From: a virus
Length of the DNA: 41,763 bases
Reading direction: 5' to 3' (one strand)
IMG/VR virus record: IMGVR_UViG_3300005533_000055
Coordinates: 1 to 41,763 of that record
This document shows positions 1-41,763 of this stretch, piece by piece; the first letter of the stretch is position 1, and each line of letters starts with the position of its first letter. The notes under the pieces are model-generated. The model worked only from the letters and a program-made list of their open reading frames with translations, ran no database searches and was not told the DNA's origin. The position numbers were made by a program, and so were the translations under genes.

Positions 1-26
1 TCCGCGTTCGCGCGGTGCGCTCCGGT
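1..26 (+). repeat. DGR variable repeat VR2, 3' portion with IMH-like end
   Basis: Bases 1-26 align with the last 26 bases of TR (1210-1235). The only differences are at TR adenines: AC of an AAC codon becomes TC, and CAC becomes CGC. After the shared GGT the sequence continues CAG, as in VR1, whereas TR continues GAG. This is the usual VR-versus-TR difference at the initiation of mutagenic homing end. The invariant last 21 bases are identical in VR1, VR2 and TR. Confidence 0.85.
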
Positions 27-32
27 CAGTAA
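1..32 (+). CDS. 3' end of DGR target protein 2 (partial)
   Basis: The first 29 bases read in frame (from base 3) as RVRAVRSGQ followed by TAA at 30-32. This matches the end of the variable repeat of the complete target gene just downstream, including the terminal CAG where the template has GAG. It is therefore the C-terminal end of a second DGR-diversified protein. The rest of that gene is most likely the truncated DUF1566-like gene at the right end of the window (41413-41763), with the two halves separated by the contig break. Joining the ends is an inference from the matching repeat halves, not something seen directly. Confidence 0.8.
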   Translation, partial: RVRAVRSGQ

Positions 33-65
33 CTCGGCTTTTGATTCTTTCGCCAGGGGATCTCA

Positions 66-641
66 ATGACTTCACTCGCCACCGAATTCCGCAAGCTGAT
101 CGCGGAGCGCATCCACACCGCCTCCGCGGCCGAAGTATTCGCGATCGCTCACACGCTCTGCGCCGCGAACGAGACGCCGGTCGTTCGTGCAGCTCCGGCG
201 CCGCAGATCGACGAGCGCTTCACGCGGCTCGGGAAGGACGGCCGGCCGACGATGGACGCGCAGGACGATTGGGTCGCCGTCTATGACTCGAAAACGAACC
301 TGACCTGGACGCGTCGAGTACTCGACTGCGGCGCGAAACCATGGGCCGATGCGTTGAAAGCCGCGTCCCAGGTCAGGCTCTTCGGCAAGGACGACTGGCG
401 CGCGCCGACGATCGAAGAGCAGCTCTCGATCATCGATTACACGCGTTGCGATCCGGCGGTCGACACGAGCTTCTTCGACGGCGACGCCGGCTGGTGTTGG
501 ACGTCGACGCCTGCGGCATCCCCCGCGGGCTACGCGTGGGGCGTCAACCTGGACTTCGGCGATTCCCTCCGCGGCTACCAGGCGGACGACAACCTCGTTC
601 GCGCGGTGCGCTCCGGTCAGCAGCTAGGCCTATCGGTCTAG
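66..641 (+). CDS. DGR target protein 1, DUF1566/Lcl-type C-type-lectin-like fold
   Basis: This 191-residue protein ends in a DUF1566 (Lcl_C)-like domain, marked by DLTWTR-type sequence, WRAPTIEEQ, a WCWTSTP strand and a closing RAVRSG. These features are typical of DGR-diversified ligand-binding modules with a C-type lectin fold. Residues about 153-184 are encoded by VR1. The mutable positions, which are AAC-derived codons in TR, appear here as Gly, Asp, Phe, Leu and Tyr. An AGGGGA ribosome site precedes the ATG. No signal peptide or membrane segment is visible in the N-terminal half. It lies directly downstream of the other target gene's end and five bases upstream of avd, so the cassette is probably one transcript. 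The ligand is unknown. It is not next to the tail genes, so a virion location is not assured. Confidence 0.88.
   Translation: MTSLATEFRKLIAERIHTASAAEVFAIAHTLCAANETPVVRAAPAPQIDERFTRLGKDGRPTMDAQDDWVAVYDSKTNLTWTRRVLDCGAKPWADALKAASQVRLFGKDDWRAPTIEEQLSIIDYTRCDPAVDTSFFDGDAGWCWTSTPAASPAGYAWGVNLDFGDSLRGYQADDNLVRAVRSGQQLGLSV
520..617 (+). repeat. DGR variable repeat VR1
   Basis: This 98-base repeat aligns without gaps to TR at 1138-1235. I count 14 mismatches and all fall at adenines in TR (A to G, T or C). The other 11 TR adenines are unchanged and no non-adenine base differs. The repeat starts in a run of five C and ends in the shared CGCTCCGGT, after which VR reads CAG and TR reads GAG. Adenine-specific substitution is the signature of DGR mutagenic retrohoming. 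Confidence 0.95.
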
Positions 642-645
642 GCCG

Positions 646-1077
646 ATGCGCTCGCAGCTGCCGCCCATCGTGAAGAGCGCCGCGCGCGTGACGGCGGTGA
701 TCGAGGAAGCCGTTTCGCGGTTTCCCCGGCGCCACCGTTACACCGCCGGCGCCGATCTTCGCCAGGCGGCGCGCGATGTCAATCGGCGGGCGCATTACGC
801 CTGGCGCGATCGGAAGGCGCAGCTGCAGCGCGTCCGCGAGCTCGTGCTCGCGGTCGACGACCTCAAGCTCGAGCTGCAGTTGGCCAAGGACATCAACGCG
901 TTCGTGAGCTTCGCGCAGTTCGAGGCGATCGCGGAGCTCGTCAGTTCTCTCGGCAGGCAGGTAGGGGGATGGCTGAAGGCGCTGCGGAGCTCGGGCCAGA
1001 ATGTACGTGACCCTGATCACGTACAGCGTGCCCCGATACTGAGTTCCCTTTCGGCCTCGCAAGAGGCAAATCCGTGA
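646..1077 (+). CDS. avd: DGR accessory variability determinant (Avd-like four-helix protein)
   Basis: This is a 143-residue, highly basic, helix-rich protein. Its length, charge and position between the target gene and the RT match Avd, the pentameric four-helix-bundle protein that binds the DGR RT and template RNA and is required for mutagenic cDNA synthesis (family knowledge). Visible features are a basic helical segment (RRHRY...DVNRRAHYAWRDRK), an acidic/basic helix (RELVLAVDDLKLELQLAKDIN) and an amphipathic helix (FEAIAELVSSLGRQVGGWLKAL), the last two resembling the Avd and 23S rRNA intervening-sequence protein fold. The stop overlaps the RT start as GTGA, implying translational coupling. 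The C-terminal tail after about residue 120 looks disordered. Confidence 0.82.
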   Translation: MRSQLPPIVKSAARVTAVIEEAVSRFPRRHRYTAGADLRQAARDVNRRAHYAWRDRKAQLQRVRELVLAVDDLKLELQLAKDINAFVSFAQFEAIAELVSSLGRQVGGWLKALRSSGQNVRDPDHVQRAPILSSLSASQEANP

Positions 1078-2360
1078 CGACGCAGTGCTACCGACAAGGA
1101 TGTGCTGAAGGGTCCCAACTGGAAGGGATAGCGCTGGCCCCCGCGGGCTACGCGTGGAACGTCAACCTGAACAACGGCAATTCCAACCGCAACAACCAGA
1201 CGAACGACAACCACGTTCGCGCGGTGCGCTCCGGTGAGTGTCGCTTCGCGGCGTCCTTCCGCGACCTCTACTCTGCCTGGCGGGAGGCCCGGCGCGGCAA
1301 GAAGCCGAGCCAGGAACAGCTCGCCTTCGATGCCCGCTGGATCGACCGGCTGCTCGAGATCCGCGACCGGCTGAATGATCTGAGCTGGCGGCCGAGCGCG
1401 CCGACCTGCTTCATCGCGACGGCGCCGAAGGCCCGGGAGATCCACGCGCCGGCGTTCGCGGACCGCGTGGTGCATCACTACCTGGTGCCGCGTCTCGAGG
1501 CGATCTTCGAGCCGATGTTCATCCACGACAGCTACTCGAACCGTAAGGGCAAAGGCACGCACGCGGCGGTCGATCGGCTGCGCGACTTCGTGCGCGAGGT
1601 CGCGAGCGGCCAGGGCGGCGGCTTCTACCTGCAGCTCGACGTCCGCAACTTCTTCAACTCCATCCACCGGCCGACGCTATACCGGCTGCTGAAAGCACAG
1701 ATGGAGCGGGCAGGCCTCGCGCTGCCGATCCGTCGTGCCGTGCATTCGCTGCTCGCGCACTCTACCGACAAGACGGGCGTCATTTACGCCTGCACCGAGG
1801 CCGAGCGCGCTGCCGTGCCGCCGCACAAGCGGCTCGAGAATTCGGCGCCCGGCTGCGGCATCGCGATAGGGAATCTCTCGAGCCAGTTCTTCGCGAACGT
1901 CTACCTCGACCGGCTCGACCAGTTCGTGAAGCACACGCTCAAGGCTCAGCGCTACCTACGGTACGTCGACGACCTGGTCCTTGTGCACCGCGACCGCGAG
2001 CAGCTCGAGGGGTGGCAGCGGCGGATCGCGGCCTTCCTGCACTACGAGCTCCGCCTCGAGCTCAAGCCGGACGCGAAGCTGCGGCAGCTCCGTTCCGGCA
2101 TCGACTTCCTCGGCTACGTCGTCTTCCCGACACACGCAGTCGTCCGCAGGCGGGTCGTCGCGCACGCCCGGTCGAAGCTGGCCGCGTGGGAACGGCGGCA
2201 CGTCCGCGCCGGCGAGATCTCGAACCGGCGCGGCGCGCTCGACGAGCTCCGGTCTACCTGGTCGAGCTACGCCGGCCACTTCTCACACGCGAGCAGCTAC
2301 CGGCTGCGGTGCCGGCTGTTCGATCGATTCAGGTGGCTCGCGAAGGCGCTGCCGCGATGA
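1074..2360 (+). CDS. DGR reverse transcriptase with in-frame template repeat
   Basis: This 428-residue ORF contains a DGR-type RT. It has QLDVRNFFNSI (about 187-197, first catalytic Asp), GNLSSQFFANVYLDRLD (about 266-282, the SQ motif that distinguishes DGR RTs), YVDD at 297-300 and a GIDFLGYVV motif. It copies template RNA into adenine-mutated cDNA for insertion at the VRs. The GTG start at 1074 overlaps the avd stop (GTGA) and has GAGG seven bases upstream. With this start, residues about 22-54 are encoded by TR itself. No in-frame ATG, GTG or TTG occurs between TR and the first RT motifs. The only alternative is the GTG at 1224 inside TR. About 380 residues remain after TR, close to a normal DGR RT. 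The 3' end overlaps the HTH gene as ATGA. Confidence 0.93.
   Translation: MTTQCYRQGCAEGSQLEGIALAPAGYAWNVNLNNGNSNRNNQTNDNHVRAVRSGECRFAASFRDLYSAWREARRGKKPSQEQLAFDARWIDRLLEIRDRLNDLSWRPSAPTCFIATAPKAREIHAPAFADRVVHHYLVPRLEAIFEPMFIHDSYSNRKGKGTHAAVDRLRDFVREVASGQGGGFYLQLDVRNFFNSIHRPTLYRLLKAQMERAGLALPIRRAVHSLLAHSTDKTGVIYACTEAERAAVPPHKRLENSAPGCGIAIGNLSSQFFANVYLDRLDQFVKHTLKAQRYLRYVDDLVLVHRDREQLEGWQRRIAAFLHYELRLELKPDAKLRQLRSGIDFLGYVVFPTHAVVRRRVVAHARSKLAAWERRHVRAGEISNRRGALDELRSTWSSYAGHFSHASSYRLRCRLFDRFRWLAKALPR
1138..1235 (+). repeat. DGR template repeat TR
   Basis: This adenine-rich block in an otherwise GC-rich region carries 25 adenines, mostly as AAC codons, which is the arrangement that gives maximum amino-acid diversity on adenine mutagenesis. 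It is 98 bases long, homologous to VR1 (520-617) and to both halves of VR2. After the shared end, TR reads GAG and the VRs read CAG (IMH* versus IMH). It lies inside the RT reading frame, in the same codon phase as the VRs. Confidence 0.95.
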
Positions 2361-2695
2361 GCCCCGCGTACCTCAGCGTCGGGCAAGCCGCTGAATTGCT
2401 TGGGTGCAGCGCCGATACGGTGCGCGCCTGGGCGCGCCGCGGTATCGTGCCGGGCGCGAAGTTGGGGAAGCTCTGGCGTTTCGACGCCGAGGCGCTTCGC
2501 GACGCGATCAAATCGAAGACCGCGGAGAAGAACGAACCATGCCGCTCTACCGACGAGCTCGGAGTCCCTACTGGTGGGTCCGCTTCTCGATCGGCGGCCG
2601 CCGCGTTCGCGAGTCTACCGGCACCAAAGACCGCGAGGCGGCGGAGCAGTACGAGACCGTCGCTCGTGCTCGTGCATGGCGGGAAACGCGCTTAG
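2357..2695 (+). CDS. Excisionase/MerR-type helix-turn-helix protein (Xis-like)
   Basis: The first about 60 residues form a classic excisionase-family winged helix (LSVGQAAELLGCSADTVRAW, then RGIVPGAKLGKLWRF and a helix ending DAIKS). Such proteins bind DNA at attachment sites as recombination directionality factors or act as small regulators. The ATG overlaps the RT stop as ATGA, so it is translationally coupled to the DGR. The reading frame runs 157 bases into the integrase gene. The tail from about residue 62 is Ser/Ala/Arg-rich and is simply the integrase N-terminus in another frame. Its position directly before the integrase favours Xis. Recombination function is inferred. Confidence 0.72.
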   Translation: MSPAYLSVGQAAELLGCSADTVRAWARRGIVPGAKLGKLWRFDAEALRDAIKSKTAEKNEPCRSTDELGVPTGGSASRSAAAAFASLPAPKTARRRSSTRPSLVLVHGGKRA

Positions 2696-3576
2696 GCCAG
2701 GCGACGCACGCCTGGAAGGACGCGGCTGCGCGGTGGGAGACCGAGACAGCGACGAAGCGCTCGGCCGACAAGGATCGGCAGATGCTGGCCTGGTTCGCGA
2801 AGAACGAGAAGTTCGCGAGCCTCGACGTCGCCGAGATCTCGCCCGATGTGATCGCGGCCGCGCGCGCGAAGCTCGCCGAGGGGCTCAGCGAGAACACGGT
2901 CAACAAGTACCTCGCGCTCGTGCGCGCAATCCTGCGCAAGGCCTCGAGCGAGTGGGGATGGCTCGCGGCCGCGCCGAAGGTGCCGATGTTCCGGATCCGG
3001 CCGCCGGACCCGCGCTTCCTGACGCGCGCGCAGTTCGGGAAGCTGATCCGGCACCTGCCGACGCACACCGCCGACATGGCGAAGTTCGCGGTGCTGACCG
3101 GGCTACGGCGATCGAACATCACCGGGTTGACCTGGGACCGCGTCGACCTCAAGCGCGGGACCGCGTTCGTGCCGGCGAGCCAGGCGAAGGGTGCGAAGGC
3201 GATCGCCGTGCCGCTGAGCGCCGAGGCGGTGCGCGTGCTGAAACGCTGGAAGGGAAAGCACGAGACGAGGGTCTTCGTGTTTCAAGGGGAACCAGTCCAC
3301 CAGGTCGCGACGAAAGCCTGGCGGAAGGCGGTCAAGGCGGCGGGGCTCGAGGAGGGCTTCCGGTTCCACGACCTGAGACACACCTGGGCGAGCTGGCAGG
3401 TGCAGGCGGAGACACCGTTGTCGGTGGTCCAGGAACTCGGCGGCTGGTCATCGTTCGAGATGGTGCGGCGCTACGCGCACCTGAGCCCGGCGCACCTCAA
3501 GAAGTACGCCGGGAGGGTCAAACTTGGCACACTGGCGGGGCACACTCGAAGGCACAAGGAGAAGCGCGGTGCTTAA
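2539..3576 (+). CDS. int: Tyrosine-recombinase integrase
   Basis: This 345-residue site-specific recombinase has an N-terminal arm-binding region with WWVRFSIGGRRVRESTGT, a SAM-like core-binding domain (about 60-145) and a catalytic domain. Catalytic residues visible are Arg190 (TGLRRSNITGL), His277 and Arg280 (HDLRH), Trp303 in the third His/Trp position (ELGGWSS) and nucleophile Tyr312 (RRYAHLSP). The start at 2539 is chosen because the fold begins there and a GGAGAAG ribosome site lies about nine bases upstream. The longer open frame to 2404 overlaps the Xis-like gene. It ends 13 bases before the tRNA-derived attP core, the usual int-attP arrangement. Confidence 0.95.
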   Translation: MPLYRRARSPYWWVRFSIGGRRVRESTGTKDREAAEQYETVARARAWRETRLGQATHAWKDAAARWETETATKRSADKDRQMLAWFAKNEKFASLDVAEISPDVIAAARAKLAEGLSENTVNKYLALVRAILRKASSEWGWLAAAPKVPMFRIRPPDPRFLTRAQFGKLIRHLPTHTADMAKFAVLTGLRRSNITGLTWDRVDLKRGTAFVPASQAKGAKAIAVPLSAEAVRVLKRWKGKHETRVFVFQGEPVHQVATKAWRKAVKAAGLEEGFRFHDLRHTWASWQVQAETPLSVVQELGGWSSFEMVRRYAHLSPAHLKKYAGRVKLGTLAGHTRRHKEKRGA

Positions 3577-3589
3577 GTCATTGATTAAA

Positions 3590-3634
3590 TGGTGGCTAGG
3601 GGGGGAGTCGAACCCCCGACCCCGGGGTTATGAA
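3590..3634 (-). other. attP core: 3' end of an elongator tRNA-Met (CAT)
   Basis: Read on the minus strand this is the anticodon loop TTCATAA, the 3' side of the anticodon stem (CCCCG), a variable loop, a perfect T arm (GGGGG, TTCGACT, CCCCC), the acceptor 3' strand CCTAGCC and ACCA. The 5' half is absent: the bases upstream of the loop (CCGGA) cannot pair with CCCCG, and no GGCTAGG acceptor strand occurs upstream. It is therefore a tRNA 3' remnant, not a gene, and restores the host tRNA-Met on integration. The TAGCCACCA end and GGGGTC variable region resemble elongator rather than initiator tRNA-Met. Confidence 0.88.
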
Positions 3635-3706
3635 TCCGGGATACGCATAGAGACGCGTGAATCGAACCCGGTAAAACCCGGGTTTCGGCGGGGGATCAAT
3701 GGGGCT

Positions 3707-3964
3707 GTGGCCGCTTACGGGCCGTTCTGGCGGCCTCTAATCGGCTCCGGTGGTACGAAAAGGGCACACTGCGGCCGCCTAGCGGCTGCCTTGGCGCTCG
3801 GCGCGTTGGCCACTGGCTGCGCTACCTGTCGCGAGCATCCCGTCGCGTGCGCGGCATCAGTGGTAGTCGTCGGAGTGATCGCCGCCCACGAGATCGATCA
3901 GCGACGGGGCAACCGGCAGGCGATCCAGCACCCGAATTGCTGGCCGAACTGCCCGGTCATGTAA
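3707..3964 (+). CDS. Possible small lipoprotein
   Basis: The open frame encodes a basic stretch, then LAAALALGALATGCATCREH, which looks like a lipoprotein signal with the Cys of the LATGC lipobox as acylation site. A second hydrophobic segment (VACAASVVVVGVIAA) and a short tail follow. The start is uncertain. GTG at 3707 is the nearest usable codon, and a longer frame from 3524 would run through attP and is unlikely. No clear ribosome site is seen. The gene lies between attP and the end of the late operon, a common place for accessory genes. The stop overlaps the next ATG (TAATG). I do not recognise a family. Confidence 0.42.
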   Translation: MAAYGPFWRPLIGSGGTKRAHCGRLAAALALGALATGCATCREHPVACAASVVVVGVIAAHEIDQRRGNRQAIQHPNCWPNCPVM

Positions 3965-4203
3965 TGCCGCGGGACCCGTTCAACCTGCCGCTGCAGCTGC
4001 CGATGCTGCCCTACCACACCCGGGCGTGGAACCAGGAGCACGCCGATCGGCACGTCGCGCTCCTCAATGCGGCGCGGGAGCGATTCGCTCGCGGACCCAA
4101 TCCGACAGCTCCTTCTGCCGGGCCGAGCACACCGCGTACGCCCGAACGTCCTGTTCGTGACACGCCTGAATCGCTTCTGCCTTGGCCTCTAGAGTTCGGC
4201 TAG
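3964..4203 (+). CDS. Hypothetical protein, convergent overlap with Rz1
   Basis: This 79-residue frame starts at an ATG overlapping the previous stop (TAATG). The N-terminal half (MPRDPFNLPLQLPMLPYH and a following helix) lies in otherwise non-coding DNA. The C-terminal half is Pro/Thr-rich and antisense to Rz1, so may be shadow sequence. No family is recognised. The TAATG coupling to the lipoprotein-like frame is the main support. Confidence 0.3.
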   Translation: MPRDPFNLPLQLPMLPYHTRAWNQEHADRHVALLNAARERFARGPNPTAPSAGPSTPRTPERPVRDTPESLLPWPLEFG

Positions 4204-4393
4204 CGAGGTCCGCCGGGAGCTGGCAGAGGATCGGCTGGCAGGCTTGCGTGAGCGTCTCCGGCTCCCGGTCGAGGTGCTCCTGGCAGACTCCACGCGGCGG
4301 CGTTCCAGCGCAGGCCGAAATTGCCAGACAGATCAGCGCAGCCGTGAGCGTCGACGACGACCTGCGGCAGCTTCCCGAATTGATCCTGGACAC
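4064..4393 (-). CDS. Rz1: Rz1-like outer-membrane spanin (o-spanin) lipoprotein
   Basis: This 109-residue lipoprotein has a basic N-terminus, a hydrophobic core and the lipobox ISAC, with Cys28 as predicted acylation site, followed by a Pro-containing, Cys-rich periplasmic part. O-spanins pair with the inner-membrane i-spanin and fuse the membranes in the last lysis step. The GTG start at 4393 is preceded by GGAGG about eight bases upstream. It begins inside the i-spanin gene in another frame and extends 136 bases past its end, which is the classic nested Rz/Rz1 layout. It ends the late operon. Confidence 0.85.
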   Translation of the reverse strand: MSRINSGSCRRSSSTLTAALICLAISACAGTPPRGVCQEHLDREPETLTQACQPILCQLPADLASRTLEAKAEAIQACHEQDVRAYAVCSARQKELSDWVRERIAPAPH

Positions 4394-4628
4394 GTTGCAG
4401 GCCTCCGTTCACGGCGTTGAGGAAGTCGAGAGTGCGGCCGCGCGCCGCATCGTCCGCGGCCGCGCGCGCCTGTAGCGCCGCGTTCGCCTTATCCAACGCC
4501 TGCGCATCGGCCGCGAGCTCGGACTTGTGGATCGATCCGGCCTCGTCGTAGCGGCCCTTCGCGTAGGAGCCGCCGAGCGCCAGCCCGAGGACGAGCAGCA
4601 GGACGCCGTAGATCTCGAGGCGGGTCAC
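4200..4628 (-). CDS. Rz: Rz-like inner-membrane spanin (i-spanin)
   Basis: This protein of about 142 residues has an N-terminal signal-anchor (IYGVLLLVLGLALGGSYA) followed by a long Ala/Lys/Asp-rich coiled coil (residues about 30-95) and a Pro-rich end. It would span the periplasm from the inner membrane and bind the o-spanin encoded within it. The start chosen is GTG at 4628, which has AGGGAG eight bases upstream and lies one base after the previous stop. A GTG at 4652 in the same frame would add eight residues and overlap the upstream gene. Confidence 0.85.
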   Translation of the reverse strand: MTRLEIYGVLLLVLGLALGGSYAKGRYDEAGSIHKSELAADAQALDKANAALQARAAADDAARGRTLDFLNAVNGGLQRVQDQFGKLPQVVVDAHGCADLSGNFGLRWNAAAWSLPGAPRPGAGDAHASLPADPLPAPGGPR

Positions 4629-4629
4629 G

Positions 4630-4914
4630 TTAGAAGCTCCCTTTCCGAACACCCGTCAACAGGTCGTCGACGACAGCGCTCTCGGTCCCGGGCCAGTGCG
4701 TGATGCGCGCGAAACCGTCCGCGTTCGGCTGATCGATGCCCGGCACTGGCGGCGAGAAGTAGGCGCCCGAGGCCTTCAGGCGCTTGACGAAATCGCGCGT
4801 GATGCAGTCCGGGCAGCTCGGCTGCCCGCAGCCTTCGACTGTGCCGCCGTCCTTGATCTCGCGCTGGCAGCCGTGGCCACCGACCGCCTGGATCTCGACT
4901 CGGAAAGTACCCAT
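4630..4914 (-). CDS. Conserved small phage protein with Cys cluster
   Basis: This 94-residue protein has a central cysteine cluster (GCGQPSCPDCITRDFVKRL) that could bind zinc, plus an upstream Cys, and ends with a THWPGTES motif. From memory, similar CPDC...REFV...L...HWPG proteins of unknown role occur next to spanin genes in proteobacterial phages. It sits directly upstream of Rz and is probably co-translated with it. No membrane segment is visible. Function is unknown. Confidence 0.75.
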   Translation of the reverse strand: MGTFRVEIQAVGGHGCQREIKDGGTVEGCGQPSCPDCITRDFVKRLKASGAYFSPPVPGIDQPNADGFARITHWPGTESAVVDDLLTGVRKGSF

Positions 4915-4960
4915 GAATTTCTCCAGTAATTACCCAGAAAGAAGGGGGTTATTTGTCAGT

Positions 4961-5326: not shown

Positions 5327-5327
5327 G

Positions 5328-5771: not shown

Positions 5772-5782
5772 GGACGGTCACC

Positions 5783-6178: not shown

Positions 6179-6182
6179 GATG

Positions 6183-7346: not shown

Positions 7347-9776
7347 TCAGCGCTTGATCGCTTCGGTCTTGAAGATCCAGTTATTGATCGTGTAGCTGGT
7401 CGTTCCGAAGTTGTAGACGCCGATCGTGCTGAAGTAATAGGTCTGCGTCGTGTTCGCAGGGAGCGCGAACACAGCCTCGTTCGAGAACGCGACGGACTGC
7501 CGCAGATTTGCCGCCTGTGAGTTCTGATCGAAGATGCGAAACGTATTCAGGCCTGCCAGCGTCCCGGTGCCGCCCCAGATAAACGGCGAGTCGGCATTCA
7601 CACCGGTCGTGAAGGTGCACCAGCCGGAGGCGGTGACGACTACCGTGCACGCATAGGGGAACGGCCCGACAGTCAGTGAAGCGACGGTCGTAGAGCCCAG
7701 GTTGCTGCCAGCTGTGCCGGTCCCCGTCGTGCTCTGCACGGTCGTCGCGGAATTCAGCAGCAGCTGCGGCGTGTCGATCCCGCCGACCACTGTCGGGATC
7801 GTGTACGTATACGCCGGGAGCCCCGCGAGCGACTCGAGACCGCCGCCCCAGATATTGAAGCTCTGGAACTTGAAGTTGACCGTCGCGCCGAACAGCCCAG
7901 CATCGAGCGGCATCTTGAAGACGTTGCCGTCGAGCCGTACGAAAGCCGAGCCGCTCGAGTGCGCGCCGATCGTCGAGCCGTACTGCCCGCGGCGCATGTA
8001 CTTCGTGCCGCCGGACAGACCGGTCGACGTGAAGGTATAAGCGCCAGGCGCGGTCAGCGTGCAGTACTCGAACGAGACGATCTCGGTGTCGACCAGCGCC
8101 AGCAGCCGCATGTTGTCGGCGTCGCCGGCCGAGCCGCCCGAGAGCTGCAGCGCCGTATTGTTGAGCGTGATCGAAAGCGTGTTCGTCGTGTCGGGATCGG
8201 AGCCCGATGCGAAGTTCGCCGAGAGCGTGCCATAGCGCGCCGGGCTCGTGATCACGCCGACCTGGGCGTAGATCGTGCCGCCATCGAGCGACATCCAGAC
8301 GTTGCAGCCGCCCCAGAGCACCGAGGCACTCGGGCCGCTGACCGCGATCCAGAATTCGTAGCCGCCGTTCGAGCCCACCAGCATCGGCGGTGCGGCGAGC
8401 ACCTTAGGCGTCTGCACCGAGCCTGGCGCCTGCGCATAGTTCGGCACGAAGCCACCGCTCGCCTGCGCGCCGTACTGCGGCGCCGTGCCGGGCCCGATCG
8501 GGAGCTCCTCGACCGTGAACTTGATCTCGTCGGTCGAGTCGTCGCCTTCCTCCATCTTGAGGATCCGGACGAGCGTGTTCACGAGGCCGAGCGTCGGATC
8601 GACGAGCGCGAGGATGTCCATAGGCTCGGGCAGGCAGTAGTCCGGCGTCGCCTTGAATTCGAACTGGTTCGGATAGTAGAGCGCCTTGTTCTTCTCGAAC
8701 TCGGCGACCTGGCGCGCCACCGAGAGCTGCGTCACCGCATCGAGCTTCAGCGTCTGCGCGACCCGTTCGCCGTTCGCCGCGATGTCGGCGTCGTCCTTTG
8801 CCTCCGCCGGCGCGGTGTTGTAGCTGTTCGAGCGATCGAGGAACTCGGCCCGGATGACGTTGAAGAGATCGCTCGATGGCTTCGCGACCAGGACGACTGG
8901 ATCCTCGTCCGGCGCCGCTACGAAGCCCGAATCGCTGATCGTGTAGATCGGCGTCGTGATCGCACCGCCAGCGCCATTGCCCGGCGTGAAGCTCGCGCCG
9001 TTCCCGGACACCGCGACGTCGGCGCGCGGGATGATCTTCGCGACGCCGGCGGCGGACCAGACCCACTCGCTGTTTGTGATCTTGAGGATGTCGGCGAGGA
9101 AGTCCTTCGCCGGCCGCTGACTGGTCTCGATCGGCGAGATCGTGAGGCCGAGCGCCTTGCAGTACTGCTGGAAGCTGTTCGCGCCGGTGAGCGATGCGAG
9201 GTAGTTGAAGCCGCAGCCGTAGTTCGCGTCGGTGCAGTAGCCGTTGACGACGTTGTAGGGTTCCGCATCGCCGCCGAGCGTCACATCGGTGAAGAAGCCC
9301 TGGATCTCCCACGAGTAGTTCGCGAGGCCTGCGGAGCTCCCGAGTCCGACCGACGCGTTCGCGACGTAGGCGGTGTGATCGAACGGGTCGGCCTGCGCCG
9401 GGAAGTTGGTCGTCAGGTAGGACCAGGCCGCCTGCCCGCCGGCGCCGGTGAAGAGCGTGAAGCCGAGGTTCGCGACCGTCTGCAGCGACTTGTCGACCCA
9501 CACCTGGCCGATGCCGGTGATCGGGCCTTCGCACAGCCCGAGCGCGACCGCGGCGCTGTAGGTGTAGCTCGTGTTGCCGCTACCGCCGCCACCGCCCTTC
9601 CCGCCCGCGCTCTGCGTGTGCGGCGTTGCCGTGAAGCTGCCGTACCAGATCAGCGTGCCAGCGAGCCGGTTCTTGCCAAAGACCAGCGGGACCGGGCCGC
9701 CGTACGCCGAGCGCTGCAGCTGGATCGCGTTGTAGCGCTTCTCGGTCTGCGCCTGCGCATGGCCGCCGCCGCTCAC
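7347..9776 (-). CDS. Tail tip/host-specificity protein (gpJ-like, Phage-tail_3 type)
   Basis: This 809-residue protein starts with the stretch typical of tip-attachment proteins (YNAIQLQRSAYGGPVPLVFG), then a Gly-rich linker and YSAAVALGLCEGPITGIGQVW. The middle part has KDFLADILKITNSEWVWS and a VDPTLGLVNTLVRILKMEE region like gpJ hub domains. The C-terminal about 350 residues are Ser/Thr/Gly-rich beta sequence probably exposed as receptor-binding domains. It would form the central tail tip and contact the host. It overlaps the NlpC gene by four bases (ATGA), completing an NlpC/DUF2163/DUF2460 tail-tip module. Confidence 0.9.
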   Translation of the reverse strand: MSGGGHAQAQTEKRYNAIQLQRSAYGGPVPLVFGKNRLAGTLIWYGSFTATPHTQSAGGKGGGGGSGNTSYTYSAAVALGLCEGPITGIGQVWVDKSLQTVANLGFTLFTGAGGQAAWSYLTTNFPAQADPFDHTAYVANASVGLGSSAGLANYSWEIQGFFTDVTLGGDAEPYNVVNGYCTDANYGCGFNYLASLTGANSFQQYCKALGLTISPIETSQRPAKDFLADILKITNSEWVWSAAGVAKIIPRADVAVSGNGASFTPGNGAGGAITTPIYTISDSGFVAAPDEDPVVLVAKPSSDLFNVIRAEFLDRSNSYNTAPAEAKDDADIAANGERVAQTLKLDAVTQLSVARQVAEFEKNKALYYPNQFEFKATPDYCLPEPMDILALVDPTLGLVNTLVRILKMEEGDDSTDEIKFTVEELPIGPGTAPQYGAQASGGFVPNYAQAPGSVQTPKVLAAPPMLVGSNGGYEFWIAVSGPSASVLWGGCNVWMSLDGGTIYAQVGVITSPARYGTLSANFASGSDPDTTNTLSITLNNTALQLSGGSAGDADNMRLLALVDTEIVSFEYCTLTAPGAYTFTSTGLSGGTKYMRRGQYGSTIGAHSSGSAFVRLDGNVFKMPLDAGLFGATVNFKFQSFNIWGGGLESLAGLPAYTYTIPTVVGGIDTPQLLLNSATTVQSTTGTGTAGSNLGSTTVASLTVGPFPYACTVVVTASGWCTFTTGVNADSPFIWGGTGTLAGLNTFRIFDQNSQAANLRQSVAFSNEAVFALPANTTQTYYFSTIGVYNFGTTSYTINNWIFKTEAIKR

Positions 9777-10207: not shown

Positions 10208-11153
10208 AGCCGCCCCCGGTCGTCGAGCCGGCGACGTTGCCGGCCTGGCCGCCGCGCGCCGGCGCCGGCGGGTTATAGGTGCCCCCGTCGTAGAGCGTCT
10301 CGGGCGTCGGCACGAAGCGATAGCCGCGGTAGTGCGCGGTGTTCGAGAACTTGGCCGAGCAGGTCGCCTGCTGCTTGTCGCAGCCCGGGAGGATCGTGAA
10401 CGTGTCGCCCGGCGCCGGCGCCGACTGGAACGGCTTCACCGTCGTCACGGTGCCGCTCGCATGTGCATACGCCTGCACTGCGTACGAGAGGCCATTGTTC
10501 GCGCCCGACGTGAAGGTCAGCACGCCGAGCGCGAAGTAGCCGTCGGCCTGCGTGAGGCCGCTCGTGATCGAGTTGCCAGAAGGCGCGGTCGCGACCGATC
10601 CGGAGACGCGGAATGTCGCCTTGGCAAGCGTGCAGCCGGCGTCGTATAGCGTGTGCACGCAGCCGGCCTGGAACAGGTTGCGCGGCATCTGCTGGTTCAG
10701 GATCGCGGTGTAGGCCTCGATCGTCAGCAGCGCCGCCATGCGCCCGACCTTCCAGGTCGAGACGCGACCCGGGAAGAACGGCACCGCGCCGAGGCTCGTG
10801 TCGAGCGGCGAGCCCATGAAGACTCGCGAGAAGATGAAGTCGGCGTTGCGGAAGAGGCCGTTGCGCACGGCCTGCAGGAGCGAACCACCGCCGATAGTGG
10901 GAACGTTCGGGCTGTCCCACTTTGGCGCGAGCGTCATCTCCAGCGTCGGGACCGTGATCCCGACTTCCTGCGTGAAGCTGCCGCGTTTGATCACGAGGCC
11001 GGTGTTGTAGAGATTGCCTCCGACCGTCAGCGGCTGGCCATAACTGGTCCAGTAGTAGACCGCGCCGCCCTGCAGCGTGAACTGAAAGATCTCGGCCCGG
11101 TAATACTGCCGGCTCGCGATCAGCGCTAGGATCGCTCCGTTCGTCGTCTTCAT
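10185..11153 (-). CDS. DUF2163/BR0599-type tail-tip protein
   Basis: This 322-residue protein has the features of phage DUF2163 proteins: an N-terminal domain binding the next hub (ASRQYYRAEIFQFTLQGG), a central VGRMAALLTIEAYTAILNQQMPRNLFQAGCVHTLYDAGC segment with paired cysteines, and the C-terminal BR0599-like signature LPGCDKQQATCSAKF...HYRGYRFVPTPE. These are hub or baseplate components equivalent to gene transfer agent gp14-type proteins. It overlaps both neighbours by a few bases, supporting one co-translated tail-tip block. The Gly/Pro-rich C-terminus is probably flexible. Confidence 0.9.
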   Translation of the reverse strand: MKTTNGAILALIASRQYYRAEIFQFTLQGGAVYYWTSYGQPLTVGGNLYNTGLVIKRGSFTQEVGITVPTLEMTLAPKWDSPNVPTIGGGSLLQAVRNGLFRNADFIFSRVFMGSPLDTSLGAVPFFPGRVSTWKVGRMAALLTIEAYTAILNQQMPRNLFQAGCVHTLYDAGCTLAKATFRVSGSVATAPSGNSITSGLTQADGYFALGVLTFTSGANNGLSYAVQAYAHASGTVTTVKPFQSAPAPGDTFTILPGCDKQQATCSAKFSNTAHYRGYRFVPTPETLYDGGTYNPPAPARGGQAGNVAGSTTGGGYGRPYSP

Positions 11154-12892
11154 ACGAATTCAGATTCGAATTCGATCTGCGTATTTGAAGACGCGTCCCA
11201 CATGCGGTTCGCGAACTCGGCAAGATCGAGCGGCTCGTCCGACGTGAAACGTGCGCGATAAAAGAACGAGCCGGTCCAGCTGAGCGTCGCGTTCACCGCC
11301 GGCGCCGCGGTGAAGCTCACAACGCCGTTCGCGCCGATCGTGTAGTCAGTCGCCGAGACGGTTGCGGTCGTCGTCGGCAGATACATAGTCGGGTTGCTCC
11401 CGACCTCGAGCTGTAGGCCCCAAGCCGTGATGCCGTTCGCAACGTTGCCGGCGTAGCCCAGAAGGCCGTCGGTAGTCGTCGGCCCGATGTACGCCGAAAT
11501 CGAGGTTGCCGCGCTCGCTTTGTTCGCAGTGACGGTGACCCGGTAAAAATTATTGCGCGCGACCGTGATGGTCGCCCGCACATTGCGCCACGTCGAGCCG
11601 GTCTGAACGGTGCCGACCGAGCCGAAGCCGGACAGATTGAACCAGACCGTTACGTTGCTCGTGGCATCGAATAGCTCGAGCCAGCAGAGCGTGCGGCTCA
11701 GGTTTGCTTCGACATACGCCGTGAACGAGATGTCTTCATTCGCCGCCGGCACCGTGACGGTTTGGTGCACCGAATGGAAGGTGTTCGTCACCGTCTCTTT
11801 GATCGTGCAGGCGGTGTTCGTGTTGTCCGGCGCGACGCTGACTGCGTTCGTCGGCGTGCTCGCATCGGGCGACCACGTCGTCCCGAGCGTCTGAGACTGG
11901 AGCAGCAGATTCGTGCGCAGGGTCGGCGACATCAGCTCGGGGAGCGAGAACCTGGTCACGTAGATCGCCGGGCCGCCATCCAGGTTCTGGACGATGTCGG
12001 GCTTACCGCCGGATCCGAGCGAGACGCCGTCGGTGGAATATTGCGCCACGAGCTGCGCGGTCGTCGTCGAGCCGTCACCGGTGAAAAAGGCCTGCTGCGT
12101 GACGGTATTGAAATCGGGGTCAAGCCAGAGAAACGTATCGCCCTGGCCGGTCATCGAATTGACGAAGCCCGCGAGAGTCTTCGCATCGCTGACCGTGACA
12201 CCGGCGGCGCCGGTCGGAATGTACGGGGTCGCGACCGTGCCGGTCTCCAGCTGTGCGCCCCAGAGCAGAAGGTCGACCGTGTCCGAGGTGCCAAAAGTGC
12301 CGCGCAGGAATACGTTGAAATTGATGACGGTCTGCGGCAGGTTCAGCCATACGTTGCTGCTGACCTGGAAGCGCTGCCAGACAGGCGTGACCGTGACGGT
12401 CGAAGCCCACGCGCTTTGATCGGTTTCCTCGAGCAGCACTTGCGCGGTGCCGCTGACGGTGCGCATCCAGATGCTGAACGTGTAGACCTGGCCTGGTACG
12501 CCGGTGACGGCTGCGCCGAGCAGCCGGCTGTAGTCGCTGCCGGTAGCCCCGCCGTTTAGGTTGAAAAAGAGCCGGTCGGCGGTATAGGTGCCGTCGGGCG
12601 CTGGGTTACCGACGTAATTCGCCTCGAGCTGCGGAGCGACGCCGGCGCCGTTTGCGGTCCGCGTCCAGCCCTGCGAAAAATCCTGCGACCACCTCAGCAG
12701 GTTGGTCCGGGTCACCGTGTCGTCGAGCCACTCCCACGAGATCTTCCAGCGCCACCGGGGCCATGGGCTCTTCGCGATCGCCGAGACCTGGCCCGCGACC
12801 GAGCGCGTGAGGCCGGTCGAGCCGCCGATCGGGATCTTACTATCGGTGAAGTTGAGCCCGACGAGGTAGTACGGGAAGACCAGGTTGCTCAT
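11150..12892 (-). CDS. DUF2460-like distal tail protein with two binding-domain insertions
   Basis: The first about 60 residues and the last about 50 (DEPLDLAEFANRMWDASSNT) match DUF2460 distal tail proteins, which usually have around 210 residues. This one has 580. The excess consists of two related segments: 62-227, from RTNLLRWSQDF to WGAQLETGTVATPYIPT, and 326-507, from RTNLLLQSQTL to WGLQLEVGSNPTMYLPT. Each looks like a beta-sandwich carbohydrate-binding-type module. They probably decorate the tail tip and help adsorption. Domain identity is inferred from start and end motifs. It overlaps the tape-measure gene by four bases. Confidence 0.82.
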   Translation of the reverse strand: MSNLVFPYYLVGLNFTDSKIPIGGSTGLTRSVAGQVSAIAKSPWPRWRWKISWEWLDDTVTRTNLLRWSQDFSQGWTRTANGAGVAPQLEANYVGNPAPDGTYTADRLFFNLNGGATGSDYSRLLGAAVTGVPGQVYTFSIWMRTVSGTAQVLLEETDQSAWASTVTVTPVWQRFQVSSNVWLNLPQTVINFNVFLRGTFGTSDTVDLLLWGAQLETGTVATPYIPTGAAGVTVSDAKTLAGFVNSMTGQGDTFLWLDPDFNTVTQQAFFTGDGSTTTAQLVAQYSTDGVSLGSGGKPDIVQNLDGGPAIYVTRFSLPELMSPTLRTNLLLQSQTLGTTWSPDASTPTNAVSVAPDNTNTACTIKETVTNTFHSVHQTVTVPAANEDISFTAYVEANLSRTLCWLELFDATSNVTVWFNLSGFGSVGTVQTGSTWRNVRATITVARNNFYRVTVTANKASAATSISAYIGPTTTDGLLGYAGNVANGITAWGLQLEVGSNPTMYLPTTTATVSATDYTIGANGVVSFTAAPAVNATLSWTGSFFYRARFTSDEPLDLAEFANRMWDASSNTQIEFESEFV

Positions 12893-35762: not shown

Positions 35763-35766
35763 CGCC

Positions 35767-37156: not shown

Positions 37157-37162
37157 TCCGAC

Positions 37163-38269
37163 ATGGCAGCCGAAGAACGCGAAGTGACGATGGCGCCCGA
37201 CACGGCGCTCGTGAGTTCGATCAGCAAAGCCGAGCTCGACCAGGCGATCACGACTGCGCGCCAGTACCCGCGCAGCCTCAAGCGCTTCCTGAGCGAATGC
37301 CTCGACATGGCGACGCTGAACGAGCGCATCGCGCAGGAGTGCATCTACGCGCTGCCCCGCGACGGCCGGATTATCGAGGGCCCGAGCGCGCGGCTTGCGG
37401 AGATCGTGGCATCCGCGTGGGGCAACTGCCGCGCCGGCGCGCGCGTGGTCGAGGAAAGTCGCGAGTTCGTGACCGCGCAGGGCGTCTTCATGGACCTCGA
37501 GCGCAACGTCTCGATCACCTTCGAGGTCCGGAGGCGCATCACCGGGCGCGACGGCCGGCGCTTCAAGGCCGACATGATCGGCGTCACCGGCAATGCCGCC
37601 TGCTCGATCGCGCTCCGGAACGCCGTTTTCAAGGGCATCCCGAAGGCCTTCTGGTCCGACATCTACGACGCGGCGCGCAAGGTCGTCGCCGGCGACTCGA
37701 AGACGATCGCGAACCGGAGGGCCGAGGCGCTCTCGTACCTGCAGAAGCTCGGCGCGACCGAGCCGATGGTGCTCGCGAAGCTTGGCGTCGCCGGCGTCGA
37801 GGACATCGGCCTCGACGAGCTCGTGCTGCTGCGAGGCCTCGCGACCGCGATCAAGGAAGGCGACACGACCGTCGAGGAGGCCTTCGCTCCGGAGCCGCCG
37901 GCGGGAAGCCAGCCGGCCTCGCAGACGGCGCGCGCGAAGGATGCGCTCCGGGCCGCGGATCCGAAGCCGGCCGAGGCCGCGCCGGCACCGCCTCCGCCCG
38001 CCGAGAAGATCCCGATGTTCTCGGTCGAGACCGCGATCACGGCGCTCAAGAGCGCGCCGACGCAGCCGCTGCTCCGCAAGGCCTGGCAGGACATCGTGCT
38101 CGACTTCCACGAGACGAAGCGCGAGCTGCCGCTCGATGTCGAGGCCGTCTACCACGACCTCAAGGAGACGCTGCCGGAGGCCGAGCCGCCGAAGGAGCAG
38201 CTGCAGATGACGCCGCCGCCCGCGGCCGCTGAGAAGCACCAGCAGACTCGGGCCGGCCGGAAGGCGTGA
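37163..38269 (+). CDS. Putative single-strand annealing/recombination protein
   Basis: This 368-residue protein has the conserved phage pattern ARQYPRSLKRFLSECLDMAT, YALPRDGRIIEGPSARLAEI, then ADMIGVTGNAACSIALRNAV and a Pro-rich linker (about 270-300) to a short C-terminal domain. Proteins of this kind regularly follow YqaJ-type exonucleases, and I infer an annealing role like that of RecT or Erf. I cannot confirm the fold by reading. The start codon is preceded by a GGGG-containing site. It overlaps the next gene by four bases. Confidence 0.72.
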   Translation: MAAEEREVTMAPDTALVSSISKAELDQAITTARQYPRSLKRFLSECLDMATLNERIAQECIYALPRDGRIIEGPSARLAEIVASAWGNCRAGARVVEESREFVTAQGVFMDLERNVSITFEVRRRITGRDGRRFKADMIGVTGNAACSIALRNAVFKGIPKAFWSDIYDAARKVVAGDSKTIANRRAEALSYLQKLGATEPMVLAKLGVAGVEDIGLDELVLLRGLATAIKEGDTTVEEAFAPEPPAGSQPASQTARAKDALRAADPKPAEAAPAPPPPAEKIPMFSVETAITALKSAPTQPLLRKAWQDIVLDFHETKRELPLDVEAVYHDLKETLPEAEPPKEQLQMTPPPAAAEKHQQTRAGRKA

Positions 38270-38838
38270 AGAGCGCGGCGCTGCAGTCGGCGATCCTCGA
38301 GCTCCTCGAAGAGGAATCCGGGACGCCGACGCAGATCCGCCAGCGGCTAGAGACCGCCGGCGCGCCGCTCAAGTTCGCGACGATCGAAACCACGCTCCAG
38401 GCGCTGCAACGGCTCGGCCGGGTGATCCGCTGCGCCGACGGCGTGTACGCCAGAGCCGAGAACCCGGCGCCGCCAGCGGCAACGCCGGCCGCTGAACCGA
38501 CGGAGACAACGATGGCGACGAAGACCTGCCCGACCTGCAAGAAGACGAAGCCCGAGTCGGAGTTCGTCAAGAACGGCAAGTGCAAGCTGTGCAACCGCGC
38601 CTACATGGCGCAGTACCGCGATCCGAAGAAGATCCGGCGGGCGAACGGTGAGAAACCGTCGCCGGCGAAAGCGCCGCGCGTGGCGCGGCCGCACCGCGGC
38701 AGCATGGTCGTCGACCACCGGATCTCTATCAACATCGTCGACGTCGACGACAAGCACTACGCCTTCACGATCAGCGCACGGCAGGCGCTCGAGCTCCGCC
38801 AGGCGCTGGCCGGCATCACGCTAGGGGAAGTCGCATGA
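38266..38838 (+). CDS. Winged-helix plus zinc-finger protein
   Basis: This 190-residue protein starts at GTG 38266 (GTGA overlap). Residues 1-65 form a winged helix (LQSAILELLEEESGTPTQIR, TIETTLQALQRLGRVIRCAD). After a Pro/Ala linker comes CPTCKKTKPESEFVKNGKCK-LC, an HNH-associated-like zinc finger. The C-terminal part (IVDVDDKHYAFTISARQALE) is a small beta-alpha unit. It is probably a DNA-binding early protein. No precise family. Confidence 0.72.
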   Translation: MKSAALQSAILELLEEESGTPTQIRQRLETAGAPLKFATIETTLQALQRLGRVIRCADGVYARAENPAPPAATPAAEPTETTMATKTCPTCKKTKPESEFVKNGKCKLCNRAYMAQYRDPKKIRRANGEKPSPAKAPRVARPHRGSMVVDHRISINIVDVDDKHYAFTISARQALELRQALAGITLGEVA

Positions 38839-40439
38839 TCGAATCGATTCAGAACATCCCGCTCAACCGCCTGCTGCTTAGCGAGACCGGCGCGCAGTCC
38901 GAGCGGCGCAAGCGCTTCGACAAGGCCGCGCTCGGCGAGCTGACCGAAAGCCTCAAGGAGTTCGGCCTGCTGCAGCCGATCGTCGTCCGCCCTAGGCCCG
39001 AGAACGGCATCGGCGGCCCTACGAACTTCGACATCGTCGCCGGCGAGCGGCGGTTCCTCGCAGCGCAGGCCGCGGGCCTCACCGAGATCTCGGCGAGCGT
39101 GCGCGAGCTCACCGACGAGCAGGTCCTCGAAATCCAGCTGATCGAGAACCTGCAGCGCGAAGGCCTGCACGAGCTCGTCGAGGCCGAGGGCTACGAGACG
39201 CTGATGCGCTCGCACGGCTACACCGTCGACGACCTGGTCGCGAAGGTCGGCAAGTCGAAAGGCTACGTCTACGGACGCTTGAAGCTGCTCGCGCTCTCGA
39301 AGCCGTCGCGCAAGGCCTTCTTCGACGGCGAGCTCTCGGCGTCGATCGCGCTGCTCGTCGCCCGCATCCCGAACGACCAGCTGCAGGCCGAGGCGCTCGA
39401 GATCATCCTCGGCGGCCAGGGCGAGCACCCGATGAGCTATCGCGCCGCGGCGGAGTTCGTGCACGACAACTTCATGCTCAAGCTCGGCGGCGCGCCGTTC
39501 CCGATCGCCGACGCGACGCTGCTGCCGGCGGCCGGGCCCTGCGGCACCTGCCCGAAGCGCACGGGCAACGCGCCCGACCTGTTCGGCGACGTCAAGGGTG
39601 CAGACGTCTGCACGGACCCGGTGTGCTTCAAGGCAAAGAAGCTGGCGCACTTCGAGCGCCGCGTCGCCAAGGCACGCGCCGACGGCCAGAACATCATCGA
39701 GGGCAAGGCGGCGCAGGCGGTCGCGCGCTACGGCACGCACAACCTCGAGGGCGGCTACGTGGCGCTCACCGAGAAGTGCTACGACGACGCGAAGCAGCGC
39801 ACCTACCGGCAGATCCTCGGCAGCACCGCGAAGCCGGAGCTGCTGCTCTTCAAGGGCAAGAAGTGGCAGGACGGCGACGAGGTCGACACGGTCGAGCTGA
39901 TCGAAGTCGTCAAGCGTTCGGCGCTCGACGGGCTTATCTCAAAGCGGCGCGAGACCGCCGGCGGAAGCTCAAACAACTACCGCAGCCAGCAACGCGCGCA
40001 GGAGAAGAAGGCCCGACGCGAAATGGCGCTTCGCACCGAGCTCGTGCGCCGGATCCGCGCGAAGCGTGGCTCGAAGGAGCTCAGCCTCGCCGAGCTCAAG
40101 CAGGTCGCGCTGGCCTTCTGGCATCGCCTCGACCACGACGCGAAGACGCACCTGTTCAAGCTGTGGGGCCGCGAGCCGACGGTCAAGAAGTCGGGGTACT
40201 TCACGAGCCGCAACTTCTCGATCGACACCGAGGTCGCGAAGGCGAGCGCCGGCGAGCTCGCCGCGCTGCTGATCGACGTAACGCTCGGGCCCGACATCCG
40301 CGCGTCGACCTACTCGCTCGACAAGCCGGCGCGGATCTATGAGGCCTGCAAGCGCTACGGCATCAAGCCGGAGAAGGTGCGGGCCGAGCTCCTGGCCGCG
40401 GAGAAGGCGAAGGCCAAGAAGCCGGCGAAGAAGAAGTGA
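38835..40439 (+). CDS. ParB/RepB-like nuclease-domain protein
   Basis: This 534-residue protein starts with a ParB N-terminal domain: LLLSETGAQSERRKRFDKAA, LKEFGLLQPIVVRP, GERRF (70-74) and ENLQRE (104-109). A helix-turn-helix follows (TVDDLVAKVGKSKGYVYGRL). It then has a Cys cluster (CGTCPKRTG...VCTDPVCF, about 236-262) and a long Lys/Arg-rich region ending KKPAKKK. ParB proteins bind centromere-like DNA with CTP, but no ParA is present, so partition is unlikely. A role in recombination, replication or gene control is inferred. It is nearly twice the usual ParB length. Confidence 0.85.
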   Translation: MIESIQNIPLNRLLLSETGAQSERRKRFDKAALGELTESLKEFGLLQPIVVRPRPENGIGGPTNFDIVAGERRFLAAQAAGLTEISASVRELTDEQVLEIQLIENLQREGLHELVEAEGYETLMRSHGYTVDDLVAKVGKSKGYVYGRLKLLALSKPSRKAFFDGELSASIALLVARIPNDQLQAEALEIILGGQGEHPMSYRAAAEFVHDNFMLKLGGAPFPIADATLLPAAGPCGTCPKRTGNAPDLFGDVKGADVCTDPVCFKAKKLAHFERRVAKARADGQNIIEGKAAQAVARYGTHNLEGGYVALTEKCYDDAKQRTYRQILGSTAKPELLLFKGKKWQDGDEVDTVELIEVVKRSALDGLISKRRETAGGSSNNYRSQQRAQEKKARREMALRTELVRRIRAKRGSKELSLAELKQVALAFWHRLDHDAKTHLFKLWGREPTVKKSGYFTSRNFSIDTEVAKASAGELAALLIDVTLGPDIRASTYSLDKPARIYEACKRYGIKPEKVRAELLAAEKAKAKKPAKKK

Positions 40440-41038
40440 AGTCGCCGGTCGAAGCCTTCCCGCTCGCGTGGCCGCCCGGCTGGCGGCGCACGCAATCGCG
40501 CAAGGGCGCGCAGTTCTCGACCTACGGCCGCGAGCTCGCGGTAATCGATGGGCTCAAGCGCGTCATCTCGGAGCTCGAGCGGCTCGGCGTCACGTCGCGC
40601 GATGATATCGTCGTATCGACGAACCTGCGCACGCGCTTGGACGGCCTGCCGCGTTCCGACCAGGCGGAGCCGACCGACCCGGGCGCCGCGGTCTACTGGC
40701 AGCGCGGCAAGAAGACCGAGTGCATCGCGATCGACCGTTACAAGCGCGTCGCCGACAACCTCGCCGCGATCGCCGCGACCCTCGAGGCCATGCGCGCGAT
40801 CGAGCGGCACGGCGGCGCCGAGATCCTCGACCGCGCCTTCACCGGCTTCGCCGCGCTGCCGGCGCCCGAGCAGCCGTTCCAGGTGCTCGGCATCGGCGCG
40901 AACGCCACGCGCGCCGAGATCGACGCGGCCTGGCGGAAGCTCGCGGCCGAGAACCATCCGGACCGGCCGGGCGGCGATGCCGACAAGATGGCGCGCATCA
41001 ACGCCGCGCGAGATGCGCTGCTGGAACAGCGACCGTGA
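40436..41038 (+). CDS. J-domain (DnaJ-like) phage protein
   Basis: This 200-residue protein has an N-terminal part starting with FPLAWPPGWRRT, a form common in phage early proteins, and VISELERLGVTSRDDIVVST. The C-terminal about 55 residues are a J-domain: FQVLGIGANATRAEIDAAWR, the HPD motif at about 174-176 and KMARINAARDALL. J-domains stimulate Hsp70 ATPase, and phages use this to remodel replication complexes. It overlaps the ParB gene by four bases. Confidence 0.85.
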   Translation: MKSPVEAFPLAWPPGWRRTQSRKGAQFSTYGRELAVIDGLKRVISELERLGVTSRDDIVVSTNLRTRLDGLPRSDQAEPTDPGAAVYWQRGKKTECIAIDRYKRVADNLAAIAATLEAMRAIERHGGAEILDRAFTGFAALPAPEQPFQVLGIGANATRAEIDAAWRKLAAENHPDRPGGDADKMARINAARDALLEQRP

Positions 41039-41079
41039 AGTCTCGCGTGATTTACCGCCCTTCGGCATTCTCCCTACTA

Positions 41080-41097
41080 CGGCGCAATTCAGCGCCG
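41080..41097 (+). promoter_or_regulatory. Small hairpin ahead of the TPR-like gene
   Basis: CGGCGC and GCGCCG form a perfect 6-bp stem with loop AATTCA, 13 bases before the ATG at 41111. No T tract follows, so it is not a terminator. The next gene's GGGAGA ribosome site lies just behind it. It may affect expression of the following genes. I see no clear promoter. Confidence 0.4.
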
Positions 41098-41110
41098 ACC
41101 GGGAGAAGCC

Positions 41111-41392
41111 ATGCGCCGCGAAGACATCATGGTCGACAGAAATCTGCGGGGAGTTGCTCTTGAGAAGGCCGGAGACATCGAGGCTGCAATTGCGCTCTAC
41201 GAAGCCAATGTTAGAGATCGCTTCGACGGTTCGCACCCATACGACCGATTGCGTGTGCTCTATCGCAAGCTCGGTCGAATCGCAGATCTCATGCGCGTCG
41301 CGCGAGCCTATTGCGCGCTTGCCGGCGGCGATCCGACTCTCAAGCTCAAATTCCAAAGACTGATCGAGCACACCACAACCGACACCGGATGA
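41111..41392 (+). CDS. TPR-like small protein, atypical composition
   Basis: This 93-residue helical protein has tetratricopeptide-like repeats: LRGVALEKAGDIEAAIALYE is a good TPR helix pair, and PYDRLRVLYRKLGRIADLMR a second. A GGGAGA site lies six bases before the ATG. By eye the gene is less GC-rich than its neighbours and uses codons such as AAT, AGA and ATT more freely, suggesting separate acquisition. It lies directly ahead of DGR target 2. Function unknown; TPRs bind proteins. Confidence 0.75.
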   Translation: MRREDIMVDRNLRGVALEKAGDIEAAIALYEANVRDRFDGSHPYDRLRVLYRKLGRIADLMRVARAYCALAGGDPTLKLKFQRLIEHTTTDTG

Positions 41393-41412
41393 ACTGACCG
41401 AAGGGAGATTCA

Positions 41413-41763
41413 ATGTACCGCCTCACCAAGATCGCTGCCGACGGCACCGACCTTCCGGCCGATGCGACTGGCCACCTCGCCGTGCGCCTCGACCACCAGC
41501 TGCTCGCGCAGCCGATCATCTGGACCGCGCACCGCTCGCCAAAGCGCCTCACCTGGAAGCAGGCGAAGGCCTGGGCCGAGAAGCTCGACATCAACGGCTG
41601 GAGCTGGCGCCTCCCGACGGTCGAGGAGGCCTTACTGCTGCCGGACCGCTCGCGCACCGAGTATCCGCTCGTCGACCCGGCGTCCTTTCCCGACTGCGAC
41701 GGCGAGTGGATCTGGACCGGCACGGAGGATCGCGTTCCCCCCGCGGGCTGCGCGTGGGGCGTC
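41413..41763 (+). CDS. DGR target protein 2, DUF1566/Lcl-type (5' part, cut by window end)
   Basis: This 117-residue partial protein has the same C-terminal build as target 1: KRLTWKQAKAWAEKLDINGW, SWRLPTVEEALLL, DCDGEWIWTGTED and then VPPAGCAWGV, the start of a VR. AAGGGAG lies about five bases before the ATG. Its end is probably the fragment at 1-32. The N-terminal about 45 residues differ from target 1, so this is a distinct protein sharing only the lectin-like module. No signal peptide visible. The ligand is unknown. Confidence 0.88.
   Translation, partial: MYRLTKIAADGTDLPADATGHLAVRLDHQLLAQPIIWTAHRSPKRLTWKQAKAWAEKLDINGWSWRLPTVEEALLLPDRSRTEYPLVDPASFPDCDGEWIWTGTEDRVPPAGCAWGV
41738..41763 (+). 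repeat. DGR variable repeat VR2, 5' portion
   Basis: These 26 bases align to the first 26 of TR (1138-1163). Differences are at adenines only: TAC becomes TGC and AAC becomes GGC. Together with bases 1-26, this accounts for 52 of 98 repeat bases. The missing 46 correspond to the adenine-richest, most variable middle. Confidence 0.88.

Follow-up and report, generated by a model that had tools for sequence, protein, structure and literature searches.

The question raised by this locus is why a viral contig should stop on both sides inside what looks like the same repeat, and what those two ends say about the genome from which it came. The stretch of DNA analyzed in this study (the window) is IMG/VR virus record IMGVR_UViG_3300005533_000055, with a length of 41,763 bases, and an end-overlap check of the entire 41,763-base record found no terminal overlap. 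The answer begins with the DGR cassette at the left end of the window, where TargetB, avd, the template repeat (TR) and the reverse transcriptase (RT) ORF follow one another on the plus strand and are followed in turn by a tyrosine integrase. TargetB, the first DGR target (66..641), is a protein of 191 aa with a C-type-lectin fold and is of the Lcl_C/DUF1566 kind (PF07603, 9e-25). Its AlphaFold prediction has a mean pLDDT of 88.7, and the best PDB fold match is 8q4e, the Legionella Lcl C-terminal domain (E 3e-4, prob 1.00), after which come C-type lectins. The first variable repeat, VR1 (520..617, plus strand), is identical to TR over 98 bases except at 14 of the 25 TR adenines, and all 14 of its 14 differences fall at TR adenines, a placement with a chance probability of P = 1.4e-10. 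The avd gene, the accessory variability determinant (646..1077, plus strand), matches phrog_3206 ('Avd protein of DGR', 1.6e-18) and scores 39.6 bits against Pfam bAvd, for which the cut-off is 40. TR itself (1138..1235, plus strand) consists of the 98 bases common to the VRs and is followed by a TR-type GTGAG end. The RT ORF (1074..2360, plus strand) is open through TR; it matches phrog_1423 (1.3e-96) and RVT_1, its best PDB sequence match is 8ub7, a reverse transcriptase, and tblastn returned RTs of DGR phages, with the IGNLSSQ and YVDD motifs present. An IMH-type difference between the 3' ends of TR and VR was also found, and a relative of this phage, L145, has the same G/C difference. The locus thus shows adenine-based TR/VR differences, an RT of DGR type, Avd, a target of C-type-lectin fold with a VR at its 3' end and an IMH-type difference, the features by which a DGR is recognized.

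Not only in the window but also in 28 of 28 relatives, the RT reading frame stays open across TR. In most members it coincides with the frame of the target gene, and several lack a start codon between TR and the RT domain. Because of this, a translated version of the target's variable loop may be present at the N-terminus of RT.

The second DGR target, TargetA, is the gene that is cut by the ends of the window. Its 5' part (41413..41763, plus strand) comprises exactly 117 codons and matches Lcl_C (PF07603, 1.5e-9) over profile positions 10-94 of 117, and its end (3..32, plus strand) supplies the last 9 codons and the stop, RVRAVRSGQ*. A match that stops at 94/117 is what is expected of a gene cut in its variable repeat. 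The sequence-only reading of this DNA had proposed that bases 41738-41763 and 1-26 are parts of one second variable repeat (VR2) with changes at adenines only, and this was confirmed. The 5' part (41738..41763, plus strand) corresponds to TR positions 1-26 with A13G, A21G and A22G, and the 3' part (1..26, plus strand) to TR positions 73-98 with A73T and A76G; 5 of the 5 differences from TR in the visible parts are therefore at TR adenines. Adenine-tolerant matches to TR 1-26 and to TR 73-98 number exactly three each in the window (TR, VR1 and VR2), with none on the other strand and none in 20 simulated windows, and an adenine-tolerant TR scan found no third VR within the window. The BLAST E-values of the VR2 ends are 5.6e-6 (right) and 7.1e-8 (left). 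The left window end carries GTCAG, as does VR1, rather than the GTGAG of TR, which indicates that this end belongs to a VR and is not a cut TR. If VR2 has the length of TR, the gap between its halves is 46 bases; with that gap the total length is divisible by 3, and the gene running from 41413 to 32 is in frame.

The join can be judged from relatives that carry the same genes on one molecule. In L145, whose RT is 65% identical to that of the window, the order TargetA-VR2-TargetB-VR1-avd-TR-RT is found on a single molecule. Its TargetA is complete, with Lcl_C covered to the last position (117/117), and is 56% identical to that of the window over all 117 residues, while TargetB is 53% identical over its full length. 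The same single-molecule order is present in L178 and G028, also from IMG/VR, and the RTs of these three relatives are 60-66% identical to that of the window. Spacing agrees as well: the starts of TargetA and TargetB are 458 (L145), 438 (L178) and 439 (G028) bases apart, compared with 462 in the window when a 46-base gap is allowed, and the distance from VR2 to TR is 1,204 in L145, 1,216 in L158, 1,204 in G005 and 1,151 in G028, compared with 1,209 in the window with the same gap. A VR lies 900-1600 bases 5' of TR in 19 of the 28 clade members. In the four phages that allowed a measurement, each of the ten TRs and VRs spans 60 bases from one conserved anchor to the other, which makes the 46-base estimate of the gap firm. 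In G028, RecE and p37163 lie 5' of TargetA, in the same order as at the right end of the window. The proposal that 46 bp are missing is upheld by the TR length, the restored frame and the invariant repeat length of the relatives, and the proposal that the two halves complete one gene (41413 to 32) is upheld by the in-frame join and the intact homologue in L145. The sequences thus document the DGR anatomy, the restriction of substitutions to adenines, the division of VR2 between the two ends and, in relatives, the gene order and spacing.

Several other features of these relatives were recorded. Extra VRs that lie 3.8-6.4 kb 5' of TR and belong to other targets are found in L147, L151, L153, L158, L159, L161, L167 and L175. 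Within 38835-41038 of the window, shortly 5' of TargetA, a DnaJ-like gene (phrog_9210) adjoins a ParB-like gene, whereas in L145 the dnaJ gene (11131-11706) lies between RT and the integrase. A single-sequence search of IMG/VR with RT gave no match and an alignment query was needed. Exact-pattern DNA scans of IMG/VR with TR and the TargetA flank, which may leave out near records, did not reveal this phage in any other record.

Closure of the genome is indicated by the same group of viruses. Exact terminal overlaps, as closed assemblies typically show, were present in 7 of the 18 TerL relatives inspected (G004, 123 bases; G008, G007, G016 and G030, 127 each; G014, 70; G027, 55), and the other eleven had none. 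Five of the overlapping relatives, with lengths of 39.7-41.9 kb and overlaps of 70-127 bases, are closed circles, and the window closed with the 46-base gap would measure 41,809 bases, within the size of these circles. The gene order, spacing and closed circles of the relatives strongly support the reading that both ends belong to one gene and one repeat and that the genome is circular or circularly permuted, and hence essentially complete. The earlier claim of a circular genome is borne out in this wider form, since the contig would be compatible with either a true circle or a terminally redundant permuted genome. The tyrosine integrase (2404..3576, plus strand; PF00589 6.4e-36, phrog_1) marks a temperate phage, and the window is best explained as an essentially complete temperate siphophage genome of ~41.8 kb. 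A scan of the window found no tRNA genes that could hint at an attachment site, and the absence of host DNA is compatible with the genes examined, which are a subset of all genes. The closest RTs from cellular genomes (L381-L387, L390) are those of Lysobacter, Dokdonella, Dyella, Xanthomonas, Stenotrophomonas and further Gammaproteobacteria, a hint that the host may be one of the Lysobacterales.

The location of the break inside VR2 is clear, and the remaining issue is its cause. The sequence-only reading had suggested that the genome was probably broken at a hypervariable site and that the gap hints at active VR2 diversity. The position of the break stands, and VR2 diversity as its cause is plausible and favoured. 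In the proposed mechanism, the DGR (avd, TR and RT) would reverse-transcribe TR RNA, making errors at adenines, and the resulting cDNA would replace VR1 in TargetB and VR2 in TargetA, thereby varying the ligand face of two tandem proteins of C-type-lectin fold. Phage individuals in the sample would probably have differing VR2 cores, and an assembler would then find no single path across TR positions 27-72, such that the contig would stop on both sides. This presumes that the DGR of the window phage is active and that VR2 is diverse in its population, both of which we infer from the sequence. VR2 heterogeneity is the likely cause of the break, and the full explanation, in which a temperate DGR phage with a circular or permuted genome was linearized in VR2 through diversity of that repeat in the population, is considered probable.

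Contigs from other sources offer some support for this mechanism. Three alignment scans yielded 236 loci with DGR-like RTs, 216 of them with recognizable TR/VR pairs. Among the metagenome DGR contigs, 6 of 93 upstream contig ends were inside a VR (L150, L187, L230, L322, L353 and L367), where a smoothed distribution of ends (kernels of 250-1000 bases) would predict 2.3-2.5. This is an enrichment of ~2.4-fold (Poisson p 0.03-0.04), which is modest; it suggests that contigs end in VRs somewhat more often than chance would give. Both window ends stop adjoining a TR adenine, but this carries little weight because only 2 of these 6 ends in VRs of other contigs do the same; a rule that contig ends always adjoin a TR adenine was tried and failed for this reason. 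Another contig that ends in the VR2 of TargetA is that of G003, a TerL relative whose TargetA shares 61% identity with that of the window. On this contig (L096), ~3 kb separate two Lcl_C genes (7560-7982 and 10667-11086); the sequence terminates within the VR carried by the second gene, and neither a TR nor an RT gene was detected there. The collection also shows that VRs vary from one individual to another. L244 and L246 represent the same phage in two separate samples, and all 17 sites at which they differ over 5.4 kb fall within the VR or at its edge. This pattern in L244 and L246 is a direct sign of DGR activity. One observation counts against diversity as the cause, namely that VR1 is served by the same DGR as VR2 and assembled without a break. 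With one TR serving both repeats, VR2 might have outpaced VR1 in the rate or breadth of its diversification in the sampled population, in which case only VR2 would have broken the assembly, but this idea is offered tentatively and is rather doubtful.

Among the alternatives, the best placed is a random break, due to a coverage dip or to chance, in a population where VR2 is uniform. Normal assembly of VR1 would fit with this, as would the fact that the enrichment of VR ends elsewhere is so limited. However, a random cut in 41.8 kb has a chance of only ~0.2% of hitting the ~98-base VR2, and the homologous VR2 also terminates G003. A GC dropout is unlikely as well, given a GC content of 50% in the TR core and 65% in the VR1 core compared with 67% in the window. 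A random break is therefore considered unlikely. Next comes the possibility that the core of VR2 is near VR1 or TR and that assembly with a short k broke there although the population is not diverse. Exact 3' stretches of 22-25 bases are common to TR, VR1 and VR2, and the unsequenced 46-base core of VR2 leaves room for such a repeat. Against this, VR2 has fixed differences from TR at positions 13, 21, 22, 73 and 76 and from VR1 at 13, 73 and 76, which cap any exact repeat at ~59 bases with VR1 and ~50 with TR, and an artefact of this kind would then need k below ~60. The 127-base overlaps of several relatives point to assemblies at k = 127, which may not be the assembler of this sample, and at that k such repeats would not break contigs. 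Exact repeats in the known sequence also fail to explain both contig ends, and this alternative is likewise improbable.

The two remaining alternatives concern the join rather than the break. The ends could come from different molecules, either two strains or two phages sharing the cassette, and a record without terminal overlap leaves room for this. However, the order, spacing and frame of the join match the single molecules L145, L178 and G028, and the closed length agrees with that of the closed-circle relatives, which makes a mixed origin very improbable. Natural termini of a linear virion genome, to which a record without end overlap would lend itself, were rejected: both ends fall in the middle of a gene, ~46 bases are missing, and in relatives that gene runs through VR2 inside the contig. 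A circular or permuted temperate phage genome that was broken in a diverse VR2 thus remains the preferred reading.

What the two variable proteins do for this phage is a separate matter. TargetA and TargetB form a pair away from the tail genes, and a tail protein (7347-9776) is encoded on the strand opposite to the DGR targets. Because the pair does not adjoin tail genes, a role in adsorption is putative only, and the targets may instead serve in lysogenic conversion or as a virion accessory protein.

With the data presented here, a contig without terminal overlap can be recognized as the essentially complete genome of a temperate phage that has two DGR targets, and the case shows how DGR variable repeats can mask the completeness of viral genomes. 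If it is true that VR2 outpaces VR1, contig ends in VRs could be read as a marker of live DGR activity in metagenomes that does not depend on reads. The excess of such ends in the small survey could likewise help to locate DGRs active at the time of sampling.

The cassette can be compared with several known systems. Like the DGR of Bordetella phage BPP-1 (mtd-avd-TR-brt), it has the target-avd-TR-RT order, adenine-specific TR/VR differences, a target of C-type-lectin fold and an RT of the DGR kind. It differs from BPP-1 in three respects: a tandem pair of DUF1566/Lcl_C targets takes the place of the single Mtd, these targets lie away from the tail genes, and TR is located inside the open RT frame. 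Overlap of TR with the RT ORF is known from DiGReF group 3 (PMC3521204), DGRs with several VRs have been published (PMC3521204), and among the Pfam domains of DGR targets, DUF1566 is described as the commonest (PMC6642488). In the multi-VR DUF1566 DGRs (PMC3521204; PMC6642488), which include a Stenotrophomonas example (PMC6642488), one TR serves several VRs in paralogous DUF1566 genes as it does in the window, and the window differs from them in nothing essential. That DGR variable repeats break contig assemblies is stated in a part of PMC8008677 that cites Minot et al. 2012, and the window resembles the breaks at hypervariable DGR loci described there in that the contig ends in a variable repeat. 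What sets the window apart is that a single VR contains both contig ends, an arrangement that is also evidence of circular closure. The IMG/VR relatives L145, L178 and G028 have the same TargetA-TargetB-avd-TR-RT order, but their contigs, unlike the window, are continuous through VR2. The window is a two-target DUF1566/Lcl_C phage DGR, of which the components and the assembly breaks in VRs were already published and the phage member is new.
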